This document shows positions 1,622-22,799 of a DNA stretch of 23,863 nucleotides, piece by piece. Numbering within the stretch: the stretch's first letter is position 1; each line of letters begins with the position of its first letter. The translations under genes and the position numbers were made by a program. Origin of the DNA: a virus; IMG/VR virus record IMGVR_UViG_3300006921_000154, positions 1 to 23,863 of that record; one strand, written 5' to 3'. The notes beneath the pieces were generated by a model. It saw only the letters and a program-made list of their open reading frames with translations, made no database searches and was not told where the DNA came from.

Positions 1622-2145
1622 TGGCTATAACTATTGCTAATTTAACTGCTAATGTTACTACTAGTGACGCTAATGTAGTAACAGGTACAGGTATATTTGA
1701 TGACATGATGGAAACTGTAAATGCGCATATGGCTGCTCAGTTTAATTTAGGTCGAATTACTGGCAGTGATTACGCAACAGTTTATTTAACGGCTATGCAA
1801 GCAACAGTACAACAAGCAGTGGCTTTTACTATAGGTGCGCAAAAAGGTAATGCTGAAGAGTCATTACTTTTTCAAAAAGAAATTACCGAGTTTGCTCAAA
1901 CAGATAAATCAACTAAAGTAGCTCCAAGTACTACTAGTATTATGGGCAGAGCTGCAGCTTTATCTGCTGAGCAAGCTAAAGGTTTCAAATGGAATGCAGA
2001 TCAAAAATACCTTAAAACGATATTAGACGCCTGGAGTATCAATATTTCTACTGCAGGAGTAGCTGCTACTGGCGTTACTGCTATAAATGAAACTGGAACA
2101 GGTAATATAAATACTCAGATATCTAACGCAGAACCTACAGGGTAA
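1621..2145 (+). CDS. Small virion protein, possible head-tail/neck component (N4 gp54 position)
   Basis: A 174-aa protein translated from an ATG that shares its A with the upstream stop codon; AGGAG at 1609-1613 gives a 7-base spacing, so the two genes are translationally coupled. Residues 22-75 (GIFDDMMETVNAHMAAQF, then GRITGSDYATVYLTAMQATV) and the later GFKWNADQKYLKTILDAWSI resemble a helical pattern I associate with small structural proteins encoded just before the ejection proteins in many podoviruses. The C-terminal 35 residues are Gly/Thr/Ala-rich and low in complexity. A neck, adaptor or tail-tube role is plausible from position and pattern, but I cannot separate these possibilities. 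Confidence 0.72.
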   Translation: MAITIANLTANVTTSDANVVTGTGIFDDMMETVNAHMAAQFNLGRITGSDYATVYLTAMQATVQQAVAFTIGAQKGNAEESLLFQKEITEFAQTDKSTKVAPSTTSIMGRAAALSAEQAKGFKWNADQKYLKTILDAWSINISTAGVAATGVTAINETGTGNINTQISNAEPTG

Positions 2146-5096: not shown

Positions 5097-5741
5097 ATGA
5101 CTACTCGTAAATGGCAACCTCCATTTATGCCTGATTATGACCAACAAACTGCTGCACTAATGATGGAAGCACGTAATAGAGGTTGGAGCGATAGTAAAAT
5201 AAAAAACCGCTTCCAAGATATGGGGGTGGATTTAGGTAAAATGGCTGGATACTCCCTTTCTCAAAAAAGTCCCCAACAGCAATTAGGCCTACTAAAAAAT
5301 ACTCAGAGAAAACAGGCATCTGTTGCAGATAAAATGCGAGAGGACTGGAGTAATAATTCTAATTTACTGAATTTGGGTAGTGGGATATATACACAAAAAG
5401 GATCTGGTAATAGTAAAAGCTGGTGGGATACTATTGGTAGTACTTTAGGAGATATGGGCGGTAGTTTATGGGACTCAGCTAAAGATATAGGACTTAAAGA
5501 TGGGTTAAAGTTAGCAACTGATGTAGCTAAAATCCCCTTAGGGTATAAAATGGTTGGATTAGCTGAAGATGAAAATAAACTAGCTGCAAGTAATTTAGCT
5601 TTTCAAAAAGATGCCTTTTGGAAAAACTATGGCAATCAAGTTACGGCTTATAATCAAATTGCGTACGATAGGCAAGCATTTAAAGATGCTCAAGATCCAA
5701 AGCGTGAGAGATACGCACAGGAAACGATTATTCCAGTTTAA
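5097..5741 (+). CDS. Internal virion protein candidate (N4 gp52 position)
   Basis: A 214-aa protein with a strong AAGGAGAT site at 5083-5090. It is mostly helical and hydrophilic, with a Gly/Ser/Trp-rich middle (SKSWWDTIGSTLGDMGGSLW, about residues 104-123) that could form an amphipathic membrane-active helix. The C-terminal part (about 160-197) is rich in Asn, Ala, Phe and Tyr (NLAFQKDAFWKNYGNQ, then AYNQIAYDRQAF), a pattern seen in small internal or ejection proteins of podoviruses. No catalytic motif is visible. It lies 12 bases before the next gene and probably belongs to one transcript with it and the giant gene. Function is inferred from context only. Confidence 0.68.
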   Translation: MTTRKWQPPFMPDYDQQTAALMMEARNRGWSDSKIKNRFQDMGVDLGKMAGYSLSQKSPQQQLGLLKNTQRKQASVADKMREDWSNNSNLLNLGSGIYTQKGSGNSKSWWDTIGSTLGDMGGSLWDSAKDIGLKDGLKLATDVAKIPLGYKMVGLAEDENKLAASNLAFQKDAFWKNYGNQVTAYNQIAYDRQAFKDAQDPKRERYAQETIIPV

Positions 5742-5753
5742 AGGAGAATAGAT

Positions 5754-7793
5754 ATGGCAGATAATGTTCCAACATGGAGAAATGTAAATCCCCATATTTC
5801 TGGAACTGGGGATACTAGTAGAGCTAATACTAAGATCATCGCAGGCCTAGAAAAAATGCTAACAGGTGTAGAGGATGTTACAGATACTTCAGGGGATATT
5901 ATAAAGAGTCAAGCTATGAATGTGCTTGGTAATCTTATTCCTGAGGAAGGACAGTCTGGTCCTGCGGCTCGTCAGGCATATATAGAAAAGCACCCGGATG
6001 AGTTTAGCTCTAGTTTTTTACGTGGAGAAATGCCAGGTATAGAAAAGTCTCTTAGCGCTTTAGATGCTGGTAAAAAGAAAATACATGATGAAAATATTCT
6101 AACAAACGAAATAACCCAATTAGAAAACATTGATCCTGCAGAAAATCCTAGAGGAGTCCGAGATTTAGTAAATAATTTTTATAAACAAAATCGACTAGGT
6201 AATGTAGCAGATCCTAATAAACGCCTTAAATATTATGCGGATAAGTTGTTAAGAGATACGCCATATGCCTTAGATCCAGATACTATAGCAGAGGCAGGAG
6301 GTATCATTGGTAACGAGTCAACATACACTCCTGATGTTGTAGCAAAAGTAAGAAAAAACATAACAGACAAAATAAGAAGCGAAAATCTAGGGGCTACTGA
6401 AGAGGAAATTGAAGCCAAAGCTAATAAGATTTTTAAAGAAAGTGAATATGGACAAGCCTTTGTTAGAGGAGTTGCATATGATAAAACTCTGACTCTTAAA
6501 GATAGAACATTTAAACAGATGGCTAGAGACATATCAGATGCATCAGATATAAATAGTAAAATTAATGCAATAAATAAAGCTAGTAAAACGTTTGCAGCAA
6601 ATCCTCAATGGGATCCAACAGAGGCTGATTTTTTAACTCAGCCTATTATTCGTGCGTTAGATGATATGACATACGCATATCCGCAACCTGATGGGACAGC
6701 CATTGAAGGAAAACTTGATCCTCTTAAAATATGGCAACAACTTGGGCTTGGTGGTGATGGCAACTTAAAAGATCAAAGAATTTTTTTAGACAAAATGTAT
6801 GAAATATACCGATCTAAATTTACTGAACTTCCTAAAAAAGTTATCGATCAAAAAATTAGACAAGATATTGCAGAAAACGGCACGATATCTACAGTGATTA
6901 AGGCAGGTAATACAATTGCCGAATTAAAAGCTAGAGATTTTAAAAGTAGTTTAGAACAATGGAACGAAAAAGCGGTAGAAGCAAGGAAATTTTTCTTAGA
7001 TGACAGACCTGTTGCAAATAAAGCAGCAGAAGCTTTATTAGCAAATCTTAAAAAGAAATACGGTCAGACAAAAGAATGGAAAGAATTAGAATCTAATGGT
7101 ATAGGAGAATTATATAAACAAGTAAGAATAGTGTCAGATAAGATGAAAAAAGCTTTTACTTATAAGTCAGGTCCAAAAGCAGGACTAAGTACTTTACAGC
7201 CTTGGCATGAGGATACTCTTGAGTTAGCTATATTTAATATGTTAAGTAACACAGGTGGGTATGATGCTAATAGGGGATTTTTGAATTTTAAAGATCCAGA
7301 TTTTAGTATTATGACAATAGATCCTAATGGTGAGATGGCTAAAGCAGATTCCAATGTCTTAATAGATGAACTACAGAGATGGCTACCTAAAAATAGATAC
7401 AGGACACCAGAAGCAAGAAAAGAAATTGCAAAGGATAAAACAGCTAGTTTCGATCAATTGGTTAATCAATATCTTGAGAGACATCCTCCATTACATAAAG
7501 TAGAGATGGAAAATCCAGGTACGGGTGAGGGAGTTTCTTATGAAAAACGACAGGATTGGATGAGAGATTATGTTAGGGCTGCTAGGGAGAAAGGTTTTTT
7601 ATACATGTTAAAACCTGACGTAATGTATAAAGCGATGGCGCTTAACTTTGGATGGGAAGATCCTAAAGGATCTACTGGTTCAAAAGTATGGAGAAAAGTA
7701 CAACAAAACATGTCACAATTGTTTAAAGAATTCGAACATATGCAAAGAATGGAGCCACGAGCTGGAGAGCCTCCAATTCAACCTAAACGTTAA
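5754..7793 (+). CDS. Internal virion / ejection protein candidate (N4 gp51 position)
   Basis: A 679-aa protein starting after a clear AAAGGAG site. It is charged, almost all helical, and has no signal peptide, membrane segment or recognised enzyme motif. Its size is close to the ~80 kDa product of N4 gene 51, which I recall as an internal virion protein lying next to the vRNAP gene. The C-terminus is basic and Pro-rich (RAGEPPIQPKR). The TAA stop at 7791-7793 is in the same reading frame as the giant gene downstream, only 21 bases away. Likely role: a partner of the giant protein inside the head and during ejection (inference). Confidence 0.7.
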   Translation: MADNVPTWRNVNPHISGTGDTSRANTKIIAGLEKMLTGVEDVTDTSGDIIKSQAMNVLGNLIPEEGQSGPAARQAYIEKHPDEFSSSFLRGEMPGIEKSLSALDAGKKKIHDENILTNEITQLENIDPAENPRGVRDLVNNFYKQNRLGNVADPNKRLKYYADKLLRDTPYALDPDTIAEAGGIIGNESTYTPDVVAKVRKNITDKIRSENLGATEEEIEAKANKIFKESEYGQAFVRGVAYDKTLTLKDRTFKQMARDISDASDINSKINAINKASKTFAANPQWDPTEADFLTQPIIRALDDMTYAYPQPDGTAIEGKLDPLKIWQQLGLGGDGNLKDQRIFLDKMYEIYRSKFTELPKKVIDQKIRQDIAENGTISTVIKAGNTIAELKARDFKSSLEQWNEKAVEARKFFLDDRPVANKAAEALLANLKKKYGQTKEWKELESNGIGELYKQVRIVSDKMKKAFTYKSGPKAGLSTLQPWHEDTLELAIFNMLSNTGGYDANRGFLNFKDPDFSIMTIDPNGEMAKADSNVLIDELQRWLPKNRYRTPEARKEIAKDKTASFDQLVNQYLERHPPLHKVEMENPGTGEGVSYEKRQDWMRDYVRAAREKGFLYMLKPDVMYKAMALNFGWEDPKGSTGSKVWRKVQQNMSQLFKEFEHMQRMEPRAGEPPIQPKR

Positions 7794-7814: not shown

Positions 7815-10800
7815 ATGCGAAAATTTGACGATATTAAACGGAGTCTGTATGGGGATGATACAGCTACTCTAGATCCTGACTATGCTCAAGGCCCATCAGA
7901 TCCTAAAGCAACTTCCTTAACTAACCGCTTACTAGAAGCTAAAGCTAGAATTAACCAGCAGAAACTGCAGGTAGCTACTGAAGTATTTGGTAATGGGCAT
8001 AAAAATACTGCCCCAGTAGCTGAACAAAAAGCTTATATAAAATCCCCAGAGAACACTACTGATTTATCAGACCCGCCTATTTCCTTTGAGTCACTACCTA
8101 GTAAGCCTTTTATGCAAGAGGAGGAGCCTATAGCTACCGGTACTCCTTTAGATAAAGAACCAGAACCTACTGAGGTTTTATTTAAAGATTTAAATGACGC
8201 CGCAGATAGATATGGAGTTCCTAAGAATCTATTAAAAGCACTAGCTAAACAGGAATCTAATTTTAACAACGAAGCTGTTTCTGAAACAGGTGTTCGTGGA
8301 GTATTGCAAGTAACGGAAAAAACTGGGAAAGAAATGTTTGAAGGGACTGGCGTTGAATTTGATGTCACTAATCAGGATCATCAGATAGAAGCCGGTACTA
8401 AGTATTTAGCTAAGCATATTAAAGATTGGAAGGCTAAAGGATTTGGCGATCAACAAGCTCAACAACTAGCTACGGCTTCTTACAATACTGGGTTTAAACG
8501 AGTGTCCGATGCTATATCTGAAACAGGAAAAGCTCTACCGACTATGGAAGAGATAGAAGAAGCTGGAAATAAATTATTTCCAGAATCTAATCTTACTAAA
8601 GACGGCAAAAAAATTCCATTCAGCAAAGAAGAATATAAAATTAAATCAAAGCAAGCTAAGAGTTTTAGAGAGGGAATGGCTCATTGGAAAAAAATTCATT
8701 ATCAAGATGGAGAATTACAAGAATTTGGAGTAGAAGGCGGAGATGAATTTGTCACAGCGGGTACTCCTCCTCCACCCCCTCCTCCTTCAGAACCTCTATC
8801 TCTTAGTGTAGATGATTTTGAAGATGAGGAAGAACTTATAATTACAGAAAAGGATCGTAAAACTCCTGGAGCTATAGCTAAAAAAGTATCTAGAACTGCT
8901 CAGAAACCTTCTAAACCTATAAACGTAGATAAAGAATGGGATAAATTATTAGATACTGTCGTAGCAAATGATGACGTATTTCTAATGGGATTAAGTGATG
9001 GCACGGAGAGTTTAAAAATAGCGGCTAAGGCTTTTATGAAATCCCAAGGAGTTAGTGGTCTCACTAGCCCACAAGCACTAACCTATCTTAATGATAACGC
9101 AGAAGATCTAGTTAATTGGATAAAAAAGACTAGTTCTACTGAACGTGCTGCTTTAGAAGACACAGTAAAACCAGTAAAGATTGACGCTACGCCTAGAGAG
9201 CCTACGGATATTTCAGTTCCAACTATTACCAAAACACCAATTAGAGAAACAACTGGAGATCTTAAAAAGGTTCCCGATATACAAGAACGGGATCCTAATA
9301 GGGTTAAAGATCAGATCAAGCCTACTAAAATTGAAGATACAGAACGTCCTACTTCTGATATTGAAAAGCCCGTAAGTAAGTCTAAAGATGTACGAATAAT
9401 TGAAGAAGAGCCAATTGTTGACGTAGGTGAACTTAGTCCTGATGACATTTATTCTAGTGCGCTCGATTACTATGAGAAAAGTGCAACTACAGATTTGGAT
9501 GCGGCATATGAGAGCACAGATGGTTTTGATCTTGCTTATCTAGCACAAAAAGAAATACAGCGACAAAAAGAAGTAACACAAGGGTTCATGCCTTTAAAGA
9601 ATAAAACCACAGTTGTTGAACAATTTAGTAATAGAGTATTTAAACATAAAGACGGTACGTGGACAGTTAGGACTTCTAGTGGGCGTGAACTAACTGGATT
9701 AGATGAAATTATGGCCAAGTCATATGCTGACTATGACCGCGAGAATTGGGCGTCTGATCCAGATGCTCCTTTAGATGGTTCTGCTGGGCAATACTTTAAT
9801 CAAACTATGCAAAGCTTAGCTTATCCTGTTGAACTAATAGCTAGCGCCTTTACTCAAACTCCAGAATCTAGGGCGTCTATTAAAAAGATGGCTGAGGAGT
9901 ATAAAAAGTATTTCCCAGTAAATAGAGCTTCTATGCAAGGAGCTTCTACAGCTCTTGCATTAATTTCTGAGCAGAAAGGTTCAGTAGAAGCTATAAAATA
10001 TGCTTTTAATAATATAGGAACTTTTTTGGAAAAAGGGTTTGATAGTGTTGGTTTTACTTTAGCACTGGCTGTAGGAAATGTCCCTGTGCAAATAGGGATG
10101 CTAGCTAGCTTAGCTCACGGTAAAGCTAATACCATGAAAGATGAGTGGAGACAGCTAGATGAAAATAAAGGAAAAGAGCTGACTCCAGAAATAGCAGCGA
10201 GAATAGAAATATCTGCAGCTTTTAGTATGCTAGCTGAAAAAGTTAGTGTTCAAGCTATAAAAGGAGTCGTCTCAGGGAAACCGCTTATTAAAGTAGATCC
10301 AACTAAATGGATGAATAAAGTAGGCGATGCTATTAATCGAGGGCTAAATAAGAATCTAGGTACTAAGACAGCTAATCTTTTATTAGTTAAACCTATTACA
10401 AAAATTGCAGCACCACTAGCAGGAGAAGGTGGTCAAGAAGTAATCAGTCAAGGATTTGAGCATTGGGGGTTAAAAGAAGAATTTTTAAGTAAATCTGAAA
10501 TGGTAGCAATTGGTATTGAAGGGACTCTAGCTGCACCGGGAGTAGCGGGTACAGTTGCTAGTCTTCAACTTACAAAAGAAGCTGCTAAACAGGTAGCTAA
10601 AGGAACTCCTGCAACTAGAAAACGCATCTTTTTAGAAAAAACTTTAACAGATACACAGGCTCAGTTAAGTAAAATTACTGTAGAAGACCGTATCAATGAT
10701 TTAGATCAACAAATTAATGATCTGTCTGGAGAAGTTAAGGATACTGAGACTGGAGTTGCAAGTCAAAATAAACGTTTTGATGAAATCTACGATACTCTTC

Positions 10801-13800
10801 GAGCAGAAGCTTTTGGGCAACTTAGCATTCCTGATGCCATAAAAGCTGCTAAGGAACAATTAGCTACAGAGCTAGAAAGCTTGCAATCAGAAAAAGCTCA
10901 ATTAGAAAAAGATACAAAACCTTTAACATTTAAAGATAATGAATTTTTAAGTAGACCTATAAAACGAGATTTAGCTAAGGTTGAACAACAAATAGAAGCA
11001 CTAAAAACAGCCGAGCCTAAACCAGGTGAAACGCCGACAGCAAGAAATGAACAAATACAGAATTTAGAAAATCGAAAAAAGACGCTTGAAGATAAATTAA
11101 ATAGCCGAGTTACTAAACAACAATTAGAGTATTTAAGGCAAAAACTAACACAAGCTAAAGCTAAAATTGAATCAGCTCTAGAAACAGATCTTACAGGCAA
11201 AGAAAAAAATAAAGAAGAGCTTGCTGGAATTGCTCTTGATCCTAAATATGGAAAAGAATTAGGTGAAGGAGAGCTAGCAATAGCTTTAAAAGAAATTAGA
11301 GTTCTTGAAGACACAGATGATCCAGGAATGCTCGATCCAGATAGGGAATTAGATCCTATTGGATTGGAAGCAACAAGTGATTACACTCCAACTAAAGATA
11401 GTGGGTTAGAAGTAGTTAAAGAAACTGAAGGTGGAGCTGTAACTAGCAATACTGTTCAGCTTAAAGAAGAGCCTGCAGAATGGACTGATGAAAAGACAGG
11501 TAGAAGATTAACAAAAGAAGATTTTGATAGTCCTATTGAATATCAACAATTTGTTAAAAAAACTAGAAAGTTTGATGCGGATAGGGAAAGAGGTATTAAA
11601 GAACTTAAAAGAATTAAAGAAGAAAAAATTAAAGAGATATCTCCAGAAGATATAAATCCTAGACGACAGCAATTAGTATTAGAAAGATTAAAGAAACTAA
11701 CTAACCGTAAACTAAATGACACAGAGAAACAAGCTGTACGTGAGAAAGTAGCAGAGCTTAAGGAAAAAGGAGTCTTACCTACTGATGCTGGGAAGAAAGG
11801 ATCTAAAGCAGATAAACTATTCTCGGGTCCTACTGCATTTGCTGACGCACAAAATGCAACTCCAGAGCAACTTAAAGAAGCACTCGATGATCCTAAGACA
11901 GATGCTGCTACTAAGAAACATTTACTAGCAATACAAAAAGCTCAGGAAGATCAGAAGAAATTAGACGAAAAACTTGAAGATAAAACCTTTGCTGATGTAC
12001 ATGAAGAAGTTGTTCGTGGAGAGGGCAAAAGGTTTAAAGGTCTGCATACATATCGTAATGAAATAATAGAATTACTTAAAAATCCTGAGAAACGTCCTAT
12101 AGCATTAATCAATCAGAAAGTCGCAGTTCTGTATGATGAAATGCAGAATCACGCGACTAATCTCAGCAATAAGCTGTATGCGTTTAAGCAAGCCTACGAT
12201 AAGGCTGAATCTGGTTTCTCAGATACAGGTAAGTTATGGGCTGTATCTGGAGTTATAGATCCTGCTGCTCAAAAGTTAAATCCTAACACACGGAAAATGA
12301 AGTACACCGTACAGGAGATGACTAGAGCTGAGTTTGATAAGGAAGTCGAGGAAAGACGAGAAGCAGCTGGGATTAGTTTTCTTACTGAGATTAGTTCATC
12401 TAAACAAACCGATACTACACTAGATTCTAGGAATCTAATTAATGCACTAGAAGAGGAAGTTAAGTTAGGTCGTAGTGCATGGGAAGCAGTTAAAACATAT
12501 CCCACTACGTCCATTGCTAAGAATGAAGCTAAAGCACAGGGCAAAGCGGAGACAGATAGTGAATTCCTAGCTGGCCTTGACAAGATAGAAGAAAAGATTG
12601 GCAGACCGACTGAGGAAATATCTGATGAAAAAATAGCTGATATCAAAGATCCTCAAAAGAAGGCTAAAGTTAAAGAAGGAGATATTGTAAACGTAGTAGA
12701 TCAAGATGGTTCTTTAATTACGCCAAAACCGGTGCCTATCACTAAAATGTTAGGTAAAGGGCCTGACGGAATTGAATATGTACAAGTTGAGGGATCTTCA
12801 GCTGGGTACCAAATTGACCGCATTGTTCCTGTTAAATCAGAAACTAAAGCACGACCTAAAGGGACATCCATTCCAGAAGAAATTGCAAAGTTAAAAGAAG
12901 ATTTAAAAAGAGTTAGACAGCTTAAAGAAGAAAAAGCTAAAAAAGATAAACTAGGGAGTGCACCCGATGAAGATTATGATAAACAAGAGCGTGAGATTCT
13001 TAGAAAAATTGAAGAGCTTGAAGCCCTTGAAAGACAAGCCGGTCAGCAACCTACAGAAGATACAGGGGGTGATGGAGCAGATGAGGTATTTGATGAAACT
13101 ACTAAAACTTCTAAATCATCTCCTGATTCTGCTGAGCAACTTACTCAAGAAACAGGAACAGATGCAGAGACCGAAACAAAAACTAAAGCAGGTAAAGTAC
13201 AAGATTTTATAGCTAGTACCATTAAAAAATATTGGCCTGTAATTCTTAAAGCGAGTGCTAAGAATCGAGAAAGAATTATGGGAATGCTTGGAACGTTCTT
13301 CACTGATTTAGTTCAAATAGGTGACATAGAGAATGTACCGGGATTGCACACGCTTCAAGATACGGATTTTATATGGACTGATGCGGATATAGAATCAGGA
13401 AGAATAAGAAAACCTCAGAAACTAGTTGGTACATTTAGTTGGCAGAAACTTAGAGATGCTCTTACAGGGTTAGGTGTAGATAAAGCTACGGCTAAACATA
13501 TAGCACAACAGTATGGAAAATTTAAAAACCGTTATGAAAATATAGCAGTAGCTTTAAAAGCTGGATCAAATGTACGTATTATTGACTCAGAAGACACACG
13601 AGTTTATGAAATAGTATCTATTAACTCAGAAGGTATTGCTAAACTTGAACTTAAGAAAGATGAACCGAAGAAGTTGATTGTAGCTGGTAAAGAGTTACCA
13701 ATAAAAACATCTTCATCTGTAGAGCAATTGTTTGATGCTAAGCAGTTTGCTTTAGGAGAGCCGTTATCTATTCTATTACGTCCTTATAATAATAGTAAGA

Positions 13801-16800
13801 CAGAACAAGTAGGTAAATTACCAGATCAAATACTATTAGGTATGTACCTAGGGGCATTATCATTTAGAACTAAGAATCCAACTAATACTAGATTTACTTC
13901 CGACTGGCAAAGGAAACAATTTCTATACAGCGGGAAAAAAGATCCTAACAAGAACGAAATAACAGAATTAGAAGATATAGGTCATGGTTTTAATGAGGCA
14001 GCAGACAGTATAGGTAAAGATGTTGCAAAGTCTTTACAACTATCTGCTAAGAAAATAGCTAAAGACCATCCTACATTAACCCAGGATAGTGCTGATTTAT
14101 ACTATGCAAGATTGCTCCCTGCTCTAGGTATGATGGCTTTAGATATAGCTGCGGGTAAAGACTCTGAAGCTTGGTTTGGTATAGAAAATAAAGTATTTAA
14201 CTTTCTTGAAGCTAAAGCAAAAGATCGAAATTTTAATAATCCAAAAAATAAAGATGACGATCAAACTTATAGGCATATTAAATACCCAGAAAAGAAAAAA
14301 TCTAAGGAAGAACTTATTGCACTTGCTGAAGATAAATCAGCATTAGAAAAAATAACTGAGCAGCTTGATATGAAGCTAGACTCTTATGGAGAAGTTCTGC
14401 GGGAACCTGTAGATACTCCAACTCGTATTAAACGATCCCTGAAGAAAGTACCACGTAAAGTAAGAAAGGCTCTTGAGAAGTTACATAATGCTAAATGGAA
14501 TATCTCAGAGACTGCGGACTCAGTAGTTGTATTAAATAAAAGTGATGCTGGTAAAGATCTTTTAAATCGACTCATGGGTGTTCTTTCTACAGAAGGAGAC
14601 ATGCATCAACGTCAACGAGATTCTTATGAAGCTGCAAATAGAGATAAACAAAACGATCTAAAGTCATTTTTAGAGGCTAACGAAGCAGGTGAATTAAAAG
14701 ACTTCTACTTTGCCTATGAACTACAAGGACATCATAGAATCCTACAACAGGGAAAAATAAATCCTCAGAACAGCAAAGTTACTAGATTCCTATTACAGTC
14801 CTGGGGAGCACAAACTTACAACAAAAATAATCTGTGGAAGTTTAAGTTAGCTGTTGCTCAGAATTTTGGACTGGATGTTGACAAGAATAAACTAGCTTGG
14901 GCTGAAACACAATTTGACCATATTGTAAATAATGGACATGTGCAAGAAGCTGTAAAAGCTATGCAAGCTCTTAACGAAAATAAAGACGACAAAGCTGCTG
15001 CTAGTAAGTTAGCAGAAGCTGTATCACAAATTAAGAGCATTGATGATTATAAAGATGCAAATATCCAGCTACTAACGGCTATTACTGCATTAGCTAAGTA
15101 CATGCCTTCTGGCGATCCTATCAGAGCAAAAGCCGAGTTTAAATCTGACATAGTAATGGAAATTGACGGAATTACTAATGGGTTTGCTATGAACCTCCTG
15201 CAGTTCCCAATATTTGATTCCGAACAATTAGAGACACATTTAAATCAAACAGGTACTTGGTATGATGTTCGTTCTTCACATGATCCAACTATACCTGATG
15301 TTTATATGACGTTGATTGACCATATTAAAGAAGGTGATACAGATGACAAAGCACTTGATTGGTACATAGAAAACGCATGGAAGAGTGACTTTGTTTCAGA
15401 GGCTGGAAGATATACAAAAGGAACTAAAAAGAAGCCACCAACTCCTCAGCAAGAGGCGGAAAATGCGCGAACGTTGGCAAAGTATCCTGAAATGTATAAA
15501 GCTAGAAGTGAAGCTTTAAGAAGCTTAGTTCCTGATTTACATCTTTATAATAAAAAAATGCGTAAAACTGTTAAGTATCCTTTCATGATTTATATGTATG
15601 GAGGAGGTACTAAGAGTATTGCTCAGGGAGTTGCATCAGATGTTGTTGATGGTTTTTATGAAGAAGTTACAGCTTTGCATAATATGTGGCAGGCTATGCA
15701 AAAAGGAACAGTAGCTCCGGAGGATAGAAAATATCTGAATGAGTTAGGCATCATTACAAGAAAAGATTATAAAAATAAGATGATGGCCTTTGTAGATAAT
15801 TTAGAAAAATTAGGTGCCTTTGAAGGCAATAAATCTCCATCTAAAGAAGAATATAAACAGTTACTATTAGATGGCAAAGCATTAGATGTAGATAAAAACG
15901 GAAAAGCACTACATAACTTTAATGATACAGAGTTAACTCAAGTAATTGGAAGAACAGTAGAGCCTAGATTTGAGCATGGTCTATCTTCTATGCTAGGAAG
16001 TACTAAAAATGCTAGAAGTGATGTAATCAAGATGGGGCAAATGATGCATCGTATGTTTATGCTCAAGTACGAGACGGCCTATCAAAAGAAATTAGATAAA
16101 ATTAATGCTGAGTACAAGGCCAGCCTTAGTGAAGAGGATAAACGAAACTTTGTTCCTTTAGATCGGTTAACTGAAAAACAAATAACTGAAATGGTAGCTG
16201 GGCAGAATGCAGAGCTGGCGGAGGTTATTCCGCAGGCTGCGGGACCACTAGCTCAGATTCTTTTAGATAGAGAAACTGGAAAAGAATATACAGATGGTGC
16301 TCTTGATTTAAGTTCTACAGAAAGTGTTAGAGGTAATGAAAAATTAGCGATTCGCAGTGATAAAATTTCAAATAAAATGACTCCGTCTGAAAACGATAAT
16401 CGCCCTGCTAATAGGGATATTATGGAGAAACAATTAGGATTTGTAGAGTCAGGCGTAAGTACACTAATTCGTCAGATTCAGAATATGGATTCCGTACTGC
16501 TAACGCAGACATTTGGTGGAGGAAACGGTAAAGGGGATCCTAGAGTTAACGTAGGCTTTACCAATAATAAATGGGAAGGAGATGGTAATGTTCTTCCATT
16601 GCATGACGCATTTATGGCTAGCCCCGAACAGCTTTCTGTCATCTCTGAGATCTACGGAACAGCGTATATAGAATACAATAAAAAATATAGCATCATTGAA
16701 ACTACTTTTAAACAAGTACAAAAAATTAGAAAGACGTTAACTCCAGAAGAGGCTCACTTTTTAAATCAGATGTACTCTGCTGAAGAGCAAAATAAACAAA

Positions 16801-19800
16801 ACCCCAGAGACGCAGATGATTTTATTGACGAATTTAAAGATCGAACAGAAGAAGTTCAAGGGTTTAGGAAGCTGCTCTTTGATAAAATGAAAGAGAAAGG
16901 TGTGGTTTCACACCAGCTATACATGCCTAAGCCCCAAGGCGAGAGTATAACTAGTTATGAAGAATCCTTAGAGGAAATAGATGCTGTAGTAAATGAGAAA
17001 GAGCCTCTTCCAGGTGCAGAAGTTGACAGACCTGTTCTACCATTTAATGACAAAAATGGTGATCCTGTAAAAGTTAATGATGACCAATGGCGGGCTATGG
17101 CTCAAATGGAGACATGGTGGGATACTGATATAGAAGATATAAATAATAAAATATTTGTACTACAAGGTAGAGGCGGTACAGGTAAAACTACGATTGTTGA
17201 AGCTGCTTTAACAAAGCTTGGATTGAATCTTGAACGCAATGAAGATGGAACACTGGTATTAGATCCATACGACAACAAACCAATTAGTAATCCTAATCTA
17301 GGAGAAGTTAAGTTTGCTCTACCTACACATAAAGCTAAGCAAGTAATTAAGCAAGCTGCAGGTAAATATAAAGATGAGGATTTTACTACAATTGCCGGTT
17401 TATTGGGAGAGAAGCCTAATTATGTACCTAGATCACAGAAAGATAAAGACACGGGTAAAACTACTATAGTTTGGAAAGCACAGTTTGAAAAGGATACAGA
17501 GTTAGCTAAGAAAGCACTAGATGATCTAAAAGGAGTTAAAGTAATTGTCATTGACGAAGCCTCAATGGTAAATGAAAAAGATACAACTGAACTAATTCAG
17601 ATAGCAGAGCAGAAGGGGATACGCCTATTGTTCATGGGCGATAACGTTCAACTGCCTCCTATAGAACAGGGCGGTAAGGGAACTGTAGACGTAGCTAGAG
17701 TGTTTGACACAGCAATGGGCATTGGGCAAAAAAAGCCAATACCTTTTGAGCCTAAACACTACGCTCAATTAAAGCAACGTATGCGACAGGATGCGGATAA
17801 TCCTATCTTAGCTATTACCGATATTCTTGCGAACGTTGCAGAGTGGATTCATAAAAAGCATACAAGTTATAAAAAACTTGAACACGGAAAGAACAGACAG
17901 TTATATTTTGAACTTCCGTTAATTAATAATAAAAATGTTAAATATATGGAGGGTAACTCATATAACGGAGCTACTAAGAATACTATCAAAGCTTTCGCTG
18001 ATGATTATAAGGCAGCTAGACTAGAAGGTAAAGAAGGTGGGGTTAAATATATTCATTACCAAAAGGCAGATCATAAAAGATCTGCATCTCTTCGTACAAA
18101 AATCCGTAAAGCAATTTTTGGTGATGCTGACCCAGGTATATTTGAAAAGCCTTATCTTAAAGGCGAACGAATAGTATTGGATGATTCTGTAACGTTACTT
18201 AATAAGGATGGTGAAGTTCAGAATTTTACTAAAGATTTACATAATGGAGATGAAGTAACAGTACAGAAGGAATTATATACTATTACTGCTCCTTATAAAG
18301 ATGGAAAAGATAGAGGAGAAAACAAAGCTCCGGTTTACAAAAACATTAGTGTAGATATCTTAGAAGTTAAATTAGATGGCAGTGGTGTTGTTTATAAGCT
18401 TGTATTAGAAAACGCTCAATCTAAAGAAGATATCGTTAAAGGGATGATACGGAATAGAAAATATGGCATTTTTAAAGGTGAACCTGGTACCGAGAATATT
18501 GCTTCTAACTATACAGGCAAGGATAAGTTCTTAGAGGGACGAGTAGTTAAGGAAATGTTTACAGAAGATCTAGGAGCAGCTTATATAATCAATGCACATA
18601 AGTCGCAAGGTAGTACCTATGATACTGTCTACGCAGATTATGAAAATATGTTACGTGGTTATCATGGTGCTGATTTCTTAACTAGAGTAAAGGCGCTATA
18701 TGTCGCTACCTCCCGTCCACGAACTAAGCTTGTAATGGTCGGAGATGCCGGCGTCATGGGATTGAATTTATCATTTGGTGATGGTGATCTTATTAAAGAG
18801 GGCGAAAATGCAAATGTAGAACTAATAGATGCTAATCAAGAGATATTAGAAAATGTCGTTAATAAAGAAACTTCTAATTTAGATGATCTTATTGAAGAAG
18901 AAATTGAACAGATAATAAAATCAGATGTTCCACCAACGCCTACACCTACGCTTTCCTGGAAAGATTTAGACAGCTTTTTAAATGACGGCTTAACTGATGC
19001 TGAACAAAACGCTATTGATAACTTAGCTAGATTTGCAGGTGATGAAACAATTTTAGAATATATTAATAATCCTCAAAGCCTTAAATCAGAATTAAAATCA
19101 ATTGAATCACAAGCTCGAGAAGATGAAGCACGAGCAGAAGCTGATGAAGAATTTGGTATGAACGAAGATGGGGACGCTGAGTCTGCTGAAAGCGCTGTTA
19201 TTAATAAAGGACTAACAGTTTTACATAAGGTTTTAGTAAAGAAAGGAGTTACAGATAAACTTGGCTCACTTGGTTCAATGGATGACTTACCAAACGAGCC
19301 TACCGGCGATCCTAGAGATTTAGGAGTTATTGGTAAAGGTAACTTTAAGAAATTATTCGATCAATTTAAACAATTCTCTACTAACTACTATGCCAATACA
19401 CGGGAGATGCTTGCACACTCTGAGACCTTAGATACTGTCTTAGGTATTTTAAGTGAAGGTATTACAGAGATAGGCGGAATTAATTTAAGTTTACAAGAAG
19501 TTCAAGGAATTACTCAGGGTGAATATGACATAGCTAATAGAGCTATGAAAATAAACCTAAGCAATAGTGTTCCCTATAGTGTTAACCAATCCCCTCAGGA
19601 AGTTTATGTTCATGAATTGCTCCATGCAACTACTGCTTTAGGTATAAGACAAAATCCGTTAATTGTTAATCGCGTAGAAAGAGTCTATGTTCAAACTAAA
19701 AGAGCAATAGATGCCAAGTACGGCAAAGGATCCGGTTACAAAGTATTTTTAACAGGTATTAACACGCCGTCTGAAAATGATATAGCAATGGCTAGGAAGC

Positions 19801-22799
19801 AATACAACTATGTATTTGCAGGTAGAGAGAAAGATAGAATACATGAATTCCTAGCTTACGCCGCTACTAATAGACAAATGATTGAGTTTCTTAAAACTCA
19901 ACCTAAACCTGTAAGGGAAGGAATTCTAGATAATATAATAGGTATTATTACAGATGTAATGAATTTCTTAAAAGAAAGCTTTGGTGCTCGAACTTACGCT
20001 GCTAAGGGCAACAATGCATTCGCAGAGATCCTTGCTGCTACTGAGCACTTAGTAGCTGTTCAAGCTAAGCATGAGAGCATGCTAGATAGATTGAATGCGT
20101 ACACCTATAATAAGCTCGATCAATCGGATGAATTCCTTAAACGAACTGGAGAAAATGTTTTCCTTAAGCTTCAAGGTAAAGAGGGGGAAACTCCTAGTCG
20201 TCTTAGACAAGCTGTTTTTGGTGCCGCTGGTGGAATCTACGCTACCATGACTACTAACGAGGCTACTATAGCTCTTAGGCAGAAAATAGATCAGAAGTTG
20301 AATAAAACTCTGAGAGGCATTGCTAATGAAATTGGAGATGGTGCTCTTACTAAAGAAATGATCGAACAGTTACTTTATGTAAAAGTTAATATATCCAAAG
20401 CTCGTCAGCAGGCAGAGACATTTACAATGAGTTGGTTTAATGGCAATAAAAAAGAAGATATAGAAGGTATTTGGAAATCCGTTAAAGAAGACGGAATGGA
20501 TGTTAAAACAAAAGTAGCACTAACTAGAGTAGTGTTCCAGACTGATCTATCTGTACTATTAAATGAAGATAATGAATGGGCTATGACTCCTGCGGAGATT
20601 ATGGATCTTATAGGGCATGCAGGCAGATCTAGACGAGCTACGTTAAAAGCTAGAATAGCTAAGGAACTTAAACTATCTCATAAATCAGATGCTCTTAGTT
20701 ACGCCAAAGAGTTGGGGTATTGGATTGCTACTGGTAATACTAGATTGGATGATTCTCATACTAATGTAAGTACAATTGCTGCACAGTATTTTACTAATCC
20801 TACAGCTGCTGAAGTTAATTTACTAGATATGTACTCTACATTGTCTGCGTTAGATTACACAGATGCTAATCATAACGAGGCAGTATTAAAGTTAGCTAGA
20901 GCAGAATTCATGGATAATCCTGATCGTAACGGTATCAGTGATCTACTAAAGAGCCACCGTACGTACAAAGAAAATATTCGTGCGGATAATTTTGAAGAGA
21001 ACGAGATGCAGCTAGTTAAAGGATATATTGTAGAGCGCGTAGATAACTTCACTTCTATTAAAATGGGCAGAGCAGATCAAGCTAAGGAAATGAAAGAACG
21101 GGGCTATTCTGAGAGCTACCCAGTAAGAAAGGTAGATCCTAGACAAACTATCGATACTATGTATGTTACCCGTACTACCCCAGAAGTTACAGACGTATCT
21201 GGAGTAATGTCTACAACTAACCAGCGTAACATGGGTACTACGTTAACTGAGATACTAGTTAGAGATCCTGCATATCACTTTACAAAAGGGCCCAATAAAG
21301 GTAAGCCTAATTTTTATATAATAAAAGCTGCAGTAGATAAATTTATTAAAGCTAAATCTAGAGCCGCTAAATCGAATAAAACTTTTAAGTGGGATGATTC
21401 TTTAACTATGCGTCCTCTTAGGGATCAAAACGGTAACATTACTGACTATCGAGTAATGATGAATCATGCTGACGTAGAGCAGATTATCCGCCCAGATCTG
21501 CAGGTTGACCACGTATTTGCTCATATGAGATCTTCAGCTGTAGATCGTAAAGAAACCATTGAAAGTGATAAGAAGACTGTAGAGCTTCTTGTATACGAGC
21601 AATTGGAGCTAATGGAAGCTAGCCCGGATATATCATGGATTAATATCATGGATCCTAATTCTCCATACATTGATAGATTTAGGAAACTACCTAAAGCTGT
21701 TAGGAAACACATGGAAGAATATGCCAAAGGTGGTCGATTCTTTGTTAGGGAAGATATTATAGATAAAGTATTCGGATATAAATCATTTGATTTATCTGAA
21801 CTGAAGATGCTCCAAGATGACGACACCAGCTTTAAACGTATTACCAAAAGAGCTGCGGGGTTAACTCATCACGCAATTAAACAAACTGTAGGTTACGGTA
21901 AAAACCGGGTAGTTATAGCAATGCCTAAAGTAGTTGTAGGTAACATGTTATCGAATATCTACCAATTAACGATGAGAAAAATACCATTAGATTACATTTT
22001 CCACAAAATAGTGGAAGGAGTACATGAGTATAACAAGTATCGTAAAGATACTGAAAGGCGCACTAAATTAAAACATGAGATAGAATCGCAAAAATTGGAT
22101 CCAGATACTAGTTCAGAAGCTGTTGAAATGCGTCAACTGGATGATCGTATTAAAGGTAATCTAATCCATCGATTAAGTAAAGCTGGGCTAAATTCTTTGA
22201 TTGTTGAAGATATTAATGATGCTCAAACAGATGGATGGATTAATAAGTTACAGAAGACTATTCCGTACTCTTTTCCTCGAGCGCAAAAGTTTATAGATAA
22301 AATACCTTCTGAATTAGGCGATGTAGCTAGATTTTTATTCATGACTAAAGGCAGTAAGCCATATCAGATATCACGGCATATAGTACAGATGACGGACTTT
22401 TTAGCTAGATATGTAATGATTGAGCATGCTACTAAAGTAAAAGGACAAGGCTTCAAAGAAGCCGTGCACGAATCTCTTGATGCTTTCGTAGTATTTGATG
22501 AAGCGATGATTCCAGCGCTAGAAACACTTGAAGCAGTAGGAGCTACGTCATTTCTTTCTTACTATCTACGTAATGCTAGAGCATCTAGAAAGTTAGTTGC
22601 ACAAAGTCCTACAGGAGTAGCACTAGCAGCCGCAGCTCAGCATACTACTGGCATACCCGTACTAGGGAATGTAAACAGTTCCTGGTTAGCTGGCAGATTT
22701 ACTCCAAATACTCTTCAAACAGATGATCTATTTGATGAAGCTAATAACGTTAGTTTATTTGAGATTGTCAAAGACGTAAATAAAGACCTATTTAATTGA
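7815..22799 (+). CDS. Giant 4,994-aa virion protein: transglycosylase + N4-type virion RNA polymerase + SF1 helicase + zinc peptidase
   Basis: One uninterrupted frame of 14,985 bases occupies the position of N4 gene 50 (virion RNA polymerase, ~3,500 aa). Order of parts by residue: lytic transglycosylase ~128-243; polyproline run 318-324; acidic disordered linkers; hydrophobic segments 741-769 and ~855-920; coiled coil ~935-1135; more charged linkers with a small SH3/KOW-like stretch ~1617-1673; RNA polymerase ~1880-2990; RecD/Dda-like helicase ~3090-3665; HExxH zinc peptidase ~3830-4060; unassigned C-terminal region to 4994. By analogy with N4 it should be packaged in the head in one or two copies and ejected with the DNA, then transcribe early genes. 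The ATG at 7815 is the only in-frame Met before residue ~100; its ribosome site is weak. The domains match those of phage 'polyvalent proteins' delivered into hosts. The 3' end overlaps the convergent gene by 12 bp. Domain calls rest on motifs; the joint mechanism is inference. Confidence 0.9.
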   Translation: MRKFDDIKRSLYGDDTATLDPDYAQGPSDPKATSLTNRLLEAKARINQQKLQVATEVFGNGHKNTAPVAEQKAYIKSPENTTDLSDPPISFESLPSKPFMQEEEPIATGTPLDKEPEPTEVLFKDLNDAADRYGVPKNLLKALAKQESNFNNEAVSETGVRGVLQVTEKTGKEMFEGTGVEFDVTNQDHQIEAGTKYLAKHIKDWKAKGFGDQQAQQLATASYNTGFKRVSDAISETGKALPTMEEIEEAGNKLFPESNLTKDGKKIPFSKEEYKIKSKQAKSFREGMAHWKKIHYQDGELQEFGVEGGDEFVTAGTPPPPPPPSEPLSLSVDDFEDEEELIITEKDRKTPGAIAKKVSRTAQKPSKPINVDKEWDKLLDTVVANDDVFLMGLSDGTESLKIAAKAFMKSQGVSGLTSPQALTYLNDNAEDLVNWIKKTSSTERAALEDTVKPVKIDATPREPTDISVPTITKTPIRETTGDLKKVPDIQERDPNRVKDQIKPTKIEDTERPTSDIEKPVSKSKDVRIIEEEPIVDVGELSPDDIYSSALDYYEKSATTDLDAAYESTDGFDLAYLAQKEIQRQKEVTQGFMPLKNKTTVVEQFSNRVFKHKDGTWTVRTSSGRELTGLDEIMAKSYADYDRENWASDPDAPLDGSAGQYFNQTMQSLAYPVELIASAFTQTPESRASIKKMAEEYKKYFPVNRASMQGASTALALISEQKGSVEAIKYAFNNIGTFLEKGFDSVGFTLALAVGNVPVQIGMLASLAHGKANTMKDEWRQLDENKGKELTPEIAARIEISAAFSMLAEKVSVQAIKGVVSGKPLIKVDPTKWMNKVGDAINRGLNKNLGTKTANLLLVKPITKIAAPLAGEGGQEVISQGFEHWGLKEEFLSKSEMVAIGIEGTLAAPGVAGTVASLQLTKEAAKQVAKGTPATRKRIFLEKTLTDTQAQLSKITVEDRINDLDQQINDLSGEVKDTETGVASQNKRFDEIYDTLRAEAFGQLSIPDAIKAAKEQLATELESLQSEKAQLEKDTKPLTFKDNEFLSRPIKRDLAKVEQQIEALKTAEPKPGETPTARNEQIQNLENRKKTLEDKLNSRVTKQQLEYLRQKLTQAKAKIESALETDLTGKEKNKEELAGIALDPKYGKELGEGELAIALKEIRVLEDTDDPGMLDPDRELDPIGLEATSDYTPTKDSGLEVVKETEGGAVTSNTVQLKEEPAEWTDEKTGRRLTKEDFDSPIEYQQFVKKTRKFDADRERGIKELKRIKEEKIKEISPEDINPRRQQLVLERLKKLTNRKLNDTEKQAVREKVAELKEKGVLPTDAGKKGSKADKLFSGPTAFADAQNATPEQLKEALDDPKTDAATKKHLLAIQKAQEDQKKLDEKLEDKTFADVHEEVVRGEGKRFKGLHTYRNEIIELLKNPEKRPIALINQKVAVLYDEMQNHATNLSNKLYAFKQAYDKAESGFSDTGKLWAVSGVIDPAAQKLNPNTRKMKYTVQEMTRAEFDKEVEERREAAGISFLTEISSSKQTDTTLDSRNLINALEEEVKLGRSAWEAVKTYPTTSIAKNEAKAQGKAETDSEFLAGLDKIEEKIGRPTEEISDEKIADIKDPQKKAKVKEGDIVNVVDQDGSLITPKPVPITKMLGKGPDGIEYVQVEGSSAGYQIDRIVPVKSETKARPKGTSIPEEIAKLKEDLKRVRQLKEEKAKKDKLGSAPDEDYDKQEREILRKIEELEALERQAGQQPTEDTGGDGADEVFDETTKTSKSSPDSAEQLTQETGTDAETETKTKAGKVQDFIASTIKKYWPVILKASAKNRERIMGMLGTFFTDLVQIGDIENVPGLHTLQDTDFIWTDADIESGRIRKPQKLVGTFSWQKLRDALTGLGVDKATAKHIAQQYGKFKNRYENIAVALKAGSNVRIIDSEDTRVYEIVSINSEGIAKLELKKDEPKKLIVAGKELPIKTSSSVEQLFDAKQFALGEPLSILLRPYNNSKTEQVGKLPDQILLGMYLGALSFRTKNPTNTRFTSDWQRKQFLYSGKKDPNKNEITELEDIGHGFNEAADSIGKDVAKSLQLSAKKIAKDHPTLTQDSADLYYARLLPALGMMALDIAAGKDSEAWFGIENKVFNFLEAKAKDRNFNNPKNKDDDQTYRHIKYPEKKKSKEELIALAEDKSALEKITEQLDMKLDSYGEVLREPVDTPTRIKRSLKKVPRKVRKALEKLHNAKWNISETADSVVVLNKSDAGKDLLNRLMGVLSTEGDMHQRQRDSYEAANRDKQNDLKSFLEANEAGELKDFYFAYELQGHHRILQQGKINPQNSKVTRFLLQSWGAQTYNKNNLWKFKLAVAQNFGLDVDKNKLAWAETQFDHIVNNGHVQEAVKAMQALNENKDDKAAASKLAEAVSQIKSIDDYKDANIQLLTAITALAKYMPSGDPIRAKAEFKSDIVMEIDGITNGFAMNLLQFPIFDSEQLETHLNQTGTWYDVRSSHDPTIPDVYMTLIDHIKEGDTDDKALDWYIENAWKSDFVSEAGRYTKGTKKKPPTPQQEAENARTLAKYPEMYKARSEALRSLVPDLHLYNKKMRKTVKYPFMIYMYGGGTKSIAQGVASDVVDGFYEEVTALHNMWQAMQKGTVAPEDRKYLNELGIITRKDYKNKMMAFVDNLEKLGAFEGNKSPSKEEYKQLLLDGKALDVDKNGKALHNFNDTELTQVIGRTVEPRFEHGLSSMLGSTKNARSDVIKMGQMMHRMFMLKYETAYQKKLDKINAEYKASLSEEDKRNFVPLDRLTEKQITEMVAGQNAELAEVIPQAAGPLAQILLDRETGKEYTDGALDLSSTESVRGNEKLAIRSDKISNKMTPSENDNRPANRDIMEKQLGFVESGVSTLIRQIQNMDSVLLTQTFGGGNGKGDPRVNVGFTNNKWEGDGNVLPLHDAFMASPEQLSVISEIYGTAYIEYNKKYSIIETTFKQVQKIRKTLTPEEAHFLNQMYSAEEQNKQNPRDADDFIDEFKDRTEEVQGFRKLLFDKMKEKGVVSHQLYMPKPQGESITSYEESLEEIDAVVNEKEPLPGAEVDRPVLPFNDKNGDPVKVNDDQWRAMAQMETWWDTDIEDINNKIFVLQGRGGTGKTTIVEAALTKLGLNLERNEDGTLVLDPYDNKPISNPNLGEVKFALPTHKAKQVIKQAAGKYKDEDFTTIAGLLGEKPNYVPRSQKDKDTGKTTIVWKAQFEKDTELAKKALDDLKGVKVIVIDEASMVNEKDTTELIQIAEQKGIRLLFMGDNVQLPPIEQGGKGTVDVARVFDTAMGIGQKKPIPFEPKHYAQLKQRMRQDADNPILAITDILANVAEWIHKKHTSYKKLEHGKNRQLYFELPLINNKNVKYMEGNSYNGATKNTIKAFADDYKAARLEGKEGGVKYIHYQKADHKRSASLRTKIRKAIFGDADPGIFEKPYLKGERIVLDDSVTLLNKDGEVQNFTKDLHNGDEVTVQKELYTITAPYKDGKDRGENKAPVYKNISVDILEVKLDGSGVVYKLVLENAQSKEDIVKGMIRNRKYGIFKGEPGTENIASNYTGKDKFLEGRVVKEMFTEDLGAAYIINAHKSQGSTYDTVYADYENMLRGYHGADFLTRVKALYVATSRPRTKLVMVGDAGVMGLNLSFGDGDLIKEGENANVELIDANQEILENVVNKETSNLDDLIEEEIEQIIKSDVPPTPTPTLSWKDLDSFLNDGLTDAEQNAIDNLARFAGDETILEYINNPQSLKSELKSIESQAREDEARAEADEEFGMNEDGDAESAESAVINKGLTVLHKVLVKKGVTDKLGSLGSMDDLPNEPTGDPRDLGVIGKGNFKKLFDQFKQFSTNYYANTREMLAHSETLDTVLGILSEGITEIGGINLSLQEVQGITQGEYDIANRAMKINLSNSVPYSVNQSPQEVYVHELLHATTALGIRQNPLIVNRVERVYVQTKRAIDAKYGKGSGYKVFLTGINTPSENDIAMARKQYNYVFAGREKDRIHEFLAYAATNRQMIEFLKTQPKPVREGILDNIIGIITDVMNFLKESFGARTYAAKGNNAFAEILAATEHLVAVQAKHESMLDRLNAYTYNKLDQSDEFLKRTGENVFLKLQGKEGETPSRLRQAVFGAAGGIYATMTTNEATIALRQKIDQKLNKTLRGIANEIGDGALTKEMIEQLLYVKVNISKARQQAETFTMSWFNGNKKEDIEGIWKSVKEDGMDVKTKVALTRVVFQTDLSVLLNEDNEWAMTPAEIMDLIGHAGRSRRATLKARIAKELKLSHKSDALSYAKELGYWIATGNTRLDDSHTNVSTIAAQYFTNPTAAEVNLLDMYSTLSALDYTDANHNEAVLKLARAEFMDNPDRNGISDLLKSHRTYKENIRADNFEENEMQLVKGYIVERVDNFTSIKMGRADQAKEMKERGYSESYPVRKVDPRQTIDTMYVTRTTPEVTDVSGVMSTTNQRNMGTTLTEILVRDPAYHFTKGPNKGKPNFYIIKAAVDKFIKAKSRAAKSNKTFKWDDSLTMRPLRDQNGNITDYRVMMNHADVEQIIRPDLQVDHVFAHMRSSAVDRKETIESDKKTVELLVYEQLELMEASPDISWINIMDPNSPYIDRFRKLPKAVRKHMEEYAKGGRFFVREDIIDKVFGYKSFDLSELKMLQDDDTSFKRITKRAAGLTHHAIKQTVGYGKNRVVIAMPKVVVGNMLSNIYQLTMRKIPLDYIFHKIVEGVHEYNKYRKDTERRTKLKHEIESQKLDPDTSSEAVEMRQLDDRIKGNLIHRLSKAGLNSLIVEDINDAQTDGWINKLQKTIPYSFPRAQKFIDKIPSELGDVARFLFMTKGSKPYQISRHIVQMTDFLARYVMIEHATKVKGQGFKEAVHESLDAFVVFDEAMIPALETLEAVGATSFLSYYLRNARASRKLVAQSPTGVALAAAAQHTTGIPVLGNVNSSWLAGRFTPNTLQTDDLFDEANNVSLFEIVKDVNKDLFN
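8196..8543 (+). other. Domain: lytic transglycosylase (SLT-like), residues ~128-243 of the giant protein
   Basis: The domain reads YGVPKNLLKALAKQESNFN, then AVSETGVRGVLQVTEKTG, then ATASYNTGFKRVSDAI. This is the SLT family signature: catalytic Glu147 in QES, the G-x-x-G-x-x-Q segment, and the AxYNxG motif at 221-226. Such domains cleave murein glycan strands to anhydro products. At the N-terminus of an ejected protein it recalls T7 gp16, whose transglycosylase aids passage of DNA through the cell wall. Confidence 0.88.
10035..10574 (+). other. Hydrophobic segments in the giant protein (residues ~741-920)
   Basis: Residues 741-769 (GFTLALAVGNVPVQIGMLAS) and about 855-920 (LLLVKPITKIAAPLAGEGG, then GTLAAPGVAGTVASL) are apolar, Gly/Ala-rich and lack charge for stretches near membrane-spanning length. 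In a protein carried inside the head these could insert into the cell membrane during ejection. They may instead be buried helices of a soluble fold. Confidence 0.4.
10617..11219 (+). other. Long coiled coil in the giant protein (residues ~935-1135)
   Basis: This region is rich in Glu, Lys, Gln and Leu with heptad-like spacing (EDRINDLDQQINDLSGEV, ELESLQSEKAQLEKDTK, VEQQIEALKTAEP, KKTLEDKLNSRVTKQQLEYL), broken by short Pro/Gly turns. It probably forms extended antiparallel helices that separate the N-terminal envelope-acting part from the polymerase. Confidence 0.7.
13452..16784 (+). other. Domain: N4/T7-type single-subunit RNA polymerase (virion RNAP), residues ~1880-2990
   Basis: All catalytic motifs of the T7/N4 class appear in order. 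Arg2308 (QGHHR) is followed eight residues later by NPQ (2316-2318), the same spacing as T7 Arg425 to FNPQ. Motif A: Asp2451 in EIDGITNG. Motif B: R2583-x3-K2587-x7-Y2595-G2596 (RKTVKYPFMIYMYG), exactly the T7 Arg627/Lys631/Tyr639 pattern. Motif C: His2930-Asp2931 in LHDAF. The spacings (143, 136, 344) resemble those of mini-vRNAP (Arg424, Asp559, Lys670, Asp951: 135, 111, 281). The extent was estimated by transferring N4 mini-vRNAP borders. The usual TxxGR lacks Thr and Gly here, a real deviation. Confidence 0.87.
17082..18809 (+). other. Domain: RecD/Dda-like SF1 helicase, residues ~3090-3665
   Basis: Motifs in order: a Q-motif-like DDQWRAMAQM; Walker A GRGGTGKTT with Lys3124; the THKAKQ segment (motif Ia); Walker B VIVIDEAS with Asp3247-Glu3248; motif III GDNVQLPPIEQGG from 3275; motif IV KQRMRQ at ~3320; a beta-rich insert ~3456-3540 in the place of the SH3-like 2B domain of RecD2/Dda; motif V/VI NAHKSQGSTYDTV from 3593 and ATSRPRTKLVMVGD with Arg3634. 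The set is complete, so an active ATP-driven 5'-3' DNA helicase is expected from the family. Confidence 0.9.
19302..19994 (+). other. Domain: zinc metallopeptidase-like (HExxH), residues ~3830-4060
   Basis: VYVHELLHATTALG contains HExxH with His3933, Glu3934 and His3937. HEFLAYAATN at 4010 supplies Glu4011 as a possible third zinc ligand, 74 residues further on, as in gluzincin-type folds. The preceding segment (AMKINLSNSVPYSVNQ) resembles the edge strand leading to the active helix. Zincin domains are known in phage and plasmid polyvalent proteins. The substrate is unknown: self-cleavage or host proteins are both possible. Confidence 0.78.
19995..22796 (+). other. Unassigned C-terminal region of the giant protein (residues ~4061-4994)
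   Basis: About 930 residues without a recognised catalytic motif. It is mainly helical and charged, with a more apolar end that includes KVVVGNMLSNIYQLTMR (from ~4710) and TSFLSYYLRNARASRKLVAQ (from ~4915). In N4 the C-terminal region of vRNAP is needed for packaging into the head; this region may do the same (inference). The final residues are acidic and Asn-rich. Confidence 0.5.

Follow-up and report, generated by a model that had tools for sequence, protein, structure and literature searches.

A predicted Dda-type helicase in the linker of an N4-type virion RNA polymerase

The locus and the parts of the giant protein

The window, which is the whole stretch of DNA that was analyzed, is a 23,863-base fragment in a virus record. 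A near-DNA search with it found no match among deposited phages. Its largest gene is one ATG-started open reading frame (ORF) of 4,994 codons with 0 internal stops, and the features of the locus are collected in Table 1. A sequence-only reading had claimed that this 15-kb frame joins four parts (SLT, RNA polymerase, helicase and HExxH), and this was confirmed, since all four were located in the ORF. Their order is an SLT lytic transglycosylase domain, a single-subunit RNA polymerase (RNAP), a helicase, an HExxH domain and, lastly, an N4-type C-terminal domain (CTD) of about 1,100 aa.

Table 1. Features of the locus, with nucleotide positions in the window and the evidence for each
Feature	Position	Strand	Evidence
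Major capsid protein at N4 gp56 position, 5' cut	2..913	+	PHROG 1357, 2.2e-95
Virion structural protein	1621..2145	+	PHROG 2050, 1.9e-33
960-aa protein, N4 gp53 position	2151..5033	+	PHROG 2220, 1.1e-44; N4-like order
gp52-type ejection protein	5097..5741	+	phmmer with N4 gp52, E 1.1e-4; position
679-aa protein, N4 gp51 (ejection protein) position	5754..7793	+	Position only
Virion RNA polymerase of N4 gp50 type plus extra domains, 4,994 aa	7815..22799	+	ORF, profile searches
SLT lytic transglycosylase domain, aa 127-239	8193..8531	+	Pfam PF01464, 2.8e-19; PHROG 342 (T7 gp16-like), 6.5e-14
Two hydrophobic segments, aa 749-767 and 896-914	10059..10556	+	Hydropathy scan
Single-subunit RNAP domain, aa ~2201-3070	14415..17024	+	Alignment of five schitovirid vRNAPs, including N4 gp50
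SF1B Dda/RecD2-type helicase, aa ~3081-3650	17055..18764	+	Motifs I-VI, SH3-like NGDEVTV element, profiles, fold match
Acidic linker, helicase to metallopeptidase-like domain	18765..19364	+	Sequence scan
HExxH metallopeptidase-like domain (C1 of N4)	19335..20234	+	HELLH 3933-3937, E4011, Iyer et al. 2017
Conserved vRNAP CTD (C1 and C2)	19395..22796	+	PHROG 2206 profile 2339-3401 on aa 3922-4981; tblastn

The genes run in the order major capsid protein, structural genes, gp52-like gene, gp51-position gene and virion RNA polymerase (vRNAP), which is the gp56-gp50 order of N4. Therefore, the protein was taken to correspond to gp50 in a phage of Schitoviridae-like type. As in N4, the vRNAP gene directly follows the gp51-position gene, which is named by position and had no PHROG family match. 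The genes downstream of the vRNAP are convergent. Judged by homology and synteny, the 4,994-aa protein is an N4-type ejected vRNAP, and by homology it is very probably packaged in the virion and ejected with the DNA.

The PHROG vRNAP family 2206 matched the protein at E 4.6e-186, and the only PDB structures matched by the RNAP part were N4 mini-vRNAP entries, with 2PO4 first. An alignment of the window protein to the polymerases of five cultured schitovirids, among them N4 gp50, placed D2451 of motif A on N4 D1556, R2583, K2587 and Y2595 of motif B on N4 R1663, K1667 and Y1675, and D2931 of motif C on N4 D1948. The arginine of the T/DxxGR motif, R2308, aligned with N4 R1421, and the motif itself reads LQGHHR. 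The catalytic residues are thus kept, as the N4/T7-type RNAP motifs read earlier had implied. Besides this core, the protein shares with N4 gp50 the HExxH-bearing C1, a large C2 and the position after gp51. The two differ in length (4,994 versus 3,500 aa) and in the helicase and N-terminal SLT domain added here, and they are 21-23% identical in the BLAST-aligned parts.

The SLT domain scored 69 bits against a Pfam cutoff of 21.3, and its predicted catalytic residue, Glu147, lies within KQESNFN (ES motif), in line with the earlier assignment. T7 gp16 is also an ejected protein with an N-terminal SLT domain, and its family, PHROG 342, matches aa 126-300 of the window protein. This match covers profile positions 19-177 of 1235, and no homology to gp16 was found beyond the SLT domain. 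To our knowledge, T7 gp16 has no polymerase, helicase or HExxH domain. The two hydrophobic segments are possible counterparts of the membrane helices in the N-terminal domain of N4 vRNAP, by comparison with the N4 work (PMC12633501).

The helicase region matched Pfam AAA_30 (2.6e-17) and UvrD_C_2, and the PHROG Dda-like helicase profile covered aa 3081-3644 at 3.8e-48. Motifs I-VI are present together with the SH3-like 2B insertion of the SF1B Dda/RecD2 type; the motifs include a P-loop at 3118, DEAS at 3247, GDNVQLPP at 3275, QRMRQ at 3321, AHKSQGST at 3594 and ATSRPR at 3631. When a structural model was compared with the PDB, T4 Dda (3UPU) was the best match at 2.8e-22 and RecD2 also ranked high. 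Profiles, motifs and fold thus all bear out the full SF1 motif set that had been proposed. A 5'-3' polarity is predicted from family membership. T4 Dda and RecD2 share the motifs, the insertion and the fold, but they are standalone enzymes.

The HELLH at 3933 is the sole HExxH of the protein, so the proposed motif held up; it was invariant in 16/16 relatives together with the downstream E4011, a candidate third ligand. According to Iyer et al. (PMC5512222), HExxH is always found with N4-like RNAPs. This constant companion raises the explanation that the giant chain is a precursor, to be cut into SLT, RNAP-helicase and CTD enzymes either by its own HExxH domain or by a protease of the host. The long acidic linker after the helicase would suit such cutting, and five relatives encode the protein as two ORFs that split before the CTD (L065, and L062, L063, L067 and L069, in which the break lies between RNAP and CTD). 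However, a PDB fold search with the metallopeptidase-like domain gave nothing significant, with weak zincin matches at E 0.07 or worse, even though the domain of one relative, L095, had an SprT-like score of 2.2e-4. The proteolysis that had been proposed is a putative activity. N4 vRNAP is also packaged unprocessed, as stated by Iyer et al. (PMC5512222). We therefore regard processing of a precursor as unlikely.

The helicase in the RNAP-CTD linker of relatives

Relatives were collected with alignment-based searches of IMG/VR, one of which yielded 63 loci; a single-sequence helicase query found no relatives there, whereas alignment queries did. The order RNAP, helicase, metallopeptidase-like domain and CTD was found in the window and in L003, L012, L019 and L095, and L003 encodes all four parts in 4,930 aa. 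Three cut contigs (L004, L017 and L096) show part of this order. L004 and L017 come from the same metagenome, and one breaks off inside the helicase where the other starts; the two are possibly pieces of a single genome. Two loci are arranged differently: L065 (516-8984) has RNAP, a NADAR domain (9.6e-11) and helicase in one ORF with the CTD in the next, and L047 has the helicase placed before the RNAP. The contig of L019 and L090 (G003) carries a single frame of 5,963 aa, larger than the window protein, in which SLT, RNAP, helicase, DUF7831, a NADAR-like stretch recognized by eye, HExxH and CTD were read.

Since these proteins are known from metagenomic contigs only, an assembly chimera or a decayed, functionless insertion was considered. 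Several metagenomes, assembled independently, show this order again, with helicase identities of 36-69% and invariant motifs, and the frame of the window is open throughout. Recurrence in independent contigs such as L003 means that the architecture is not due to chance or misassembly, and a chimera was rejected; the explanation as a whole is highly improbable. The motif residues are invariant across the set of fused helicases compared, indicating selection for activity.

Between RNAP and CTD, the closest helicase-free relatives have 62-117 aa and L003 and L012 have 662-700 aa, and the helicase therefore fills the RNAP-CTD linker. In N4 this linker has 23 aa and is invisible in the structure (PMC12633501). 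Among frames that could be scored for both RNAP and CTD, 5 contained the helicase and 30 lacked it. Most relatives thus do without it, and vRNAPs in general do not require it. In five helicase-free loci (L020, L021, L022, L034 and L040), this slot is occupied by an insert of about 200-480 aa. None of these inserts had a Pfam match, and they are possibly unknown cargo domains. These relatives show the linker to be a slot for exchangeable modules.

Five cultured vRNAPs, including that of N4, had no P-loop of the form searched and no helicase profile match. A tblastn search with the C-terminal stretch of the vRNAP reached about 480 deposited phage records, and the helicases of the window and of L095 reached 64 and 185 records, respectively. 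Among the helicase matches listed, none was annotated as a vRNAP; their annotations were helicase, exonuclease V or hypothetical protein, and some had none. To this extent, no fused helicase was seen in the roughly 480 records with an N4-type C-terminus. The match in the 40-kb Manatee Spring phage is a standalone gene.

We found no report of a helicase within a vRNAP in the open-access literature. One of the closest described proteins is set apart by its description: the Moraxella prophage protein DR90_1081 (WP_038519592.1; Iyer et al. 2017) likewise has an N4-like RNAP, a metallopeptidase and a lysozyme/transglycosylase, but a PBECR RNase is described for it and the consulted part of that paper mentions no helicase, for this protein or with any N4-like RNAP (PMC5512222). 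The idea that the window protein fuses the role of T7 gp16 with an N4 vRNAP therefore stands for the domains and not for novelty, because N4 vRNAP is already viewed as an analogue of T7 gp16 (PMC12633501) and the domain fusion was mostly known from Iyer et al. Similarly, the four-part combination had been thought undescribed, which holds for the helicase and not for the other three parts. The new part is the SF1B helicase built into an N4-type vRNAP; the SLT fusion was known before.

Exchange of helicase and wall modules

In a tree of a small set of sequences, all nine fused helicases formed one clade (support 96/93), apart from the standalone helicases of the same phage group. The placement of L047 and L065 is less sure because both enter as long branches. 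Two relatives, G001 (L017) and G002 (L047), have both a fused and a standalone helicase. A recent origin of the module from the separate helicase of these same phages was rejected, since the standalone helicase of L017 lies outside the fused clade; its main local matches to the fused helicases reach only about 22-30% identity.

The fused helicase of L019 clusters with those of L095 and L096 (93/93), and the CTD of L019 clusters with that of the window. Accordingly, L019 and L095 share 58% identity across the helicase, compared with 29% for the RNAP and 27% for the CTD, and L019 and the window are 46%, 51% and 60% identical in the same parts. The simplest reading is that the helicase was transferred between polymerases into the same slot. 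In the CTD tree, five changes in helicase content were counted, an approximate number because some of the rows scored as lacking the helicase, L018 among them, are contigs truncated ahead of the slot.

The wall-cutting part also varies. The SLT domain is present in the window, L003 and the G003 frame (on the L019 contig, read in L090). Another kind of transglycosylase-type module, matching PHROG 4067, occurs in L004, L013 and L041. L012 has no wall module, and its matches jump from residue 88 of the window protein to residue 296. Judging from these sequences, wall modules are swapped among relatives. In L041 (122-991), the vRNAP N-terminus has the PHROG 4067 module and then a LysM domain (7.2e-11).

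Gain, loss and exchange of modules, as in polyvalent proteins, were thus seen among relatives, and the protein would be transferred with the DNA, as they are. Polyvalent proteins such as P1 DarB and the UvrD-bearing proteins of actinomycete plasmids are likewise giant, transferred and built of swappable enzymatic modules, some with helicases. Such likeness suggests another explanation, in which the helicase is counter-defense or DNA-repair cargo acting on host nucleoprotein or DNA-end structures. Horizontal exchange of the module would fit this, and Iyer et al. describe polyvalent proteins with DNA-acting effectors that include SF2 and UvrD-type helicases (PMC5512222). NADAR, proposed to counter host NAD/ADP-ribose defense (PMC9503650), adjoins the helicase in L065 and, by eye, in L019. 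The helicases of P1 DarB and the plasmid proteins are of the SWI2/SNF2 or UvrD type, and here an SF1B enzyme stands beside an N4-like RNAP. However, the module is repeatedly found fused beside the polymerase at one and the same site, which points to a functional link with transcription, and we consider a cargo role improbable.

A possible role in opening the template

The vRNAP of N4 shows no activity on native duplex DNA and is believed to depend on hairpins that gyrase causes to extrude (PMC12633501). Three questions were left open in the N4 work of 2025: how the vRNAP opens duplex DNA, what the CTD does and which enzyme cuts peptidoglycan during ejection. The N4 ejection proteins appear to be without wall hydrolysis, and DNA binding or unwinding by the CTD is a speculation of the authors (PMC12633501). 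In natural relatives studied here, the RNAP-CTD linker holds a Dda-type helicase, and the N-terminus carries a transglycosylase.

The reading we favor, and hold to be reasonably probable, is that of an ejected vRNAP with a wall-cutting SLT domain and a linker helicase that opens the template in cis. After adsorption, the protein would travel through the tail alongside channel proteins of the gp51/gp52 type, and the SLT domain would open the peptidoglycan locally. The part made up of RNAP, helicase and CTD would refold in the cytoplasm, and the helicase would unwind or translocate on the first incoming DNA. The polymerase would thus be supplied in cis with a single-stranded or opened template, which N4 vRNAP is believed to get solely via supercoiling by host gyrase. 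Packaging, ejection, the enzymatic activities and the unwinding role are our inference, and the domains, catalytic residues, linker position, recurrence, module exchange and synteny are seen in the sequences. Against this reading stand the lack of the helicase in most relatives and L047, where it lies on the other side of the RNAP. Because the helicase is built into the vRNAP, the enzyme that acts first on the entering genome may be able to unwind the template it transcribes. A tentative extension is that the exchanged module makes the vRNAP self-unwinding and independent of host gyrase supercoiling at the first promoters, and that it may help to pull the genome in. The suggestion that the protein is a self-contained entry-and-takeover machine was overstated, since genes of the gp51/gp52 type are retained in the window, and relatives have RNAP II and a separate helicase besides.

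Another possible explanation is that the helicase is a genome-entry motor, in which a membrane-anchored protein would pull DNA by ATP hydrolysis beside or instead of transcription. SF1B enzymes are directional translocases, and the window protein has hydrophobic segments in its N-terminal region. For N4, it has also been proposed that the vRNAP stays anchored in the membrane and that its transcription pulls the genome in (PMC12633501). Sequence alone does not tell such a motor apart from template unwinding. Dda-type helicases, however, move along single strands and require a free or opened strand, and a dedicated motor seems rather unlikely to us.

Returning to template opening, the early regions of two helicase-bearing relatives (G001 and G002) were scanned for N4-like promoter hairpins. 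No repeated promoter-like hairpin was found in them; the scan recovered three N4 early hairpins and gave no clear set for the cultured control PEV2 either. The helicase-bearing and helicase-free vRNAPs offer a natural experiment on template opening and gyrase dependence. One helicase-free vRNAP, L087, has a CTD 44% identical to that of the window, and its contig was binned with a Hyphomicrobiales MAG, which is a possible hint of the host.
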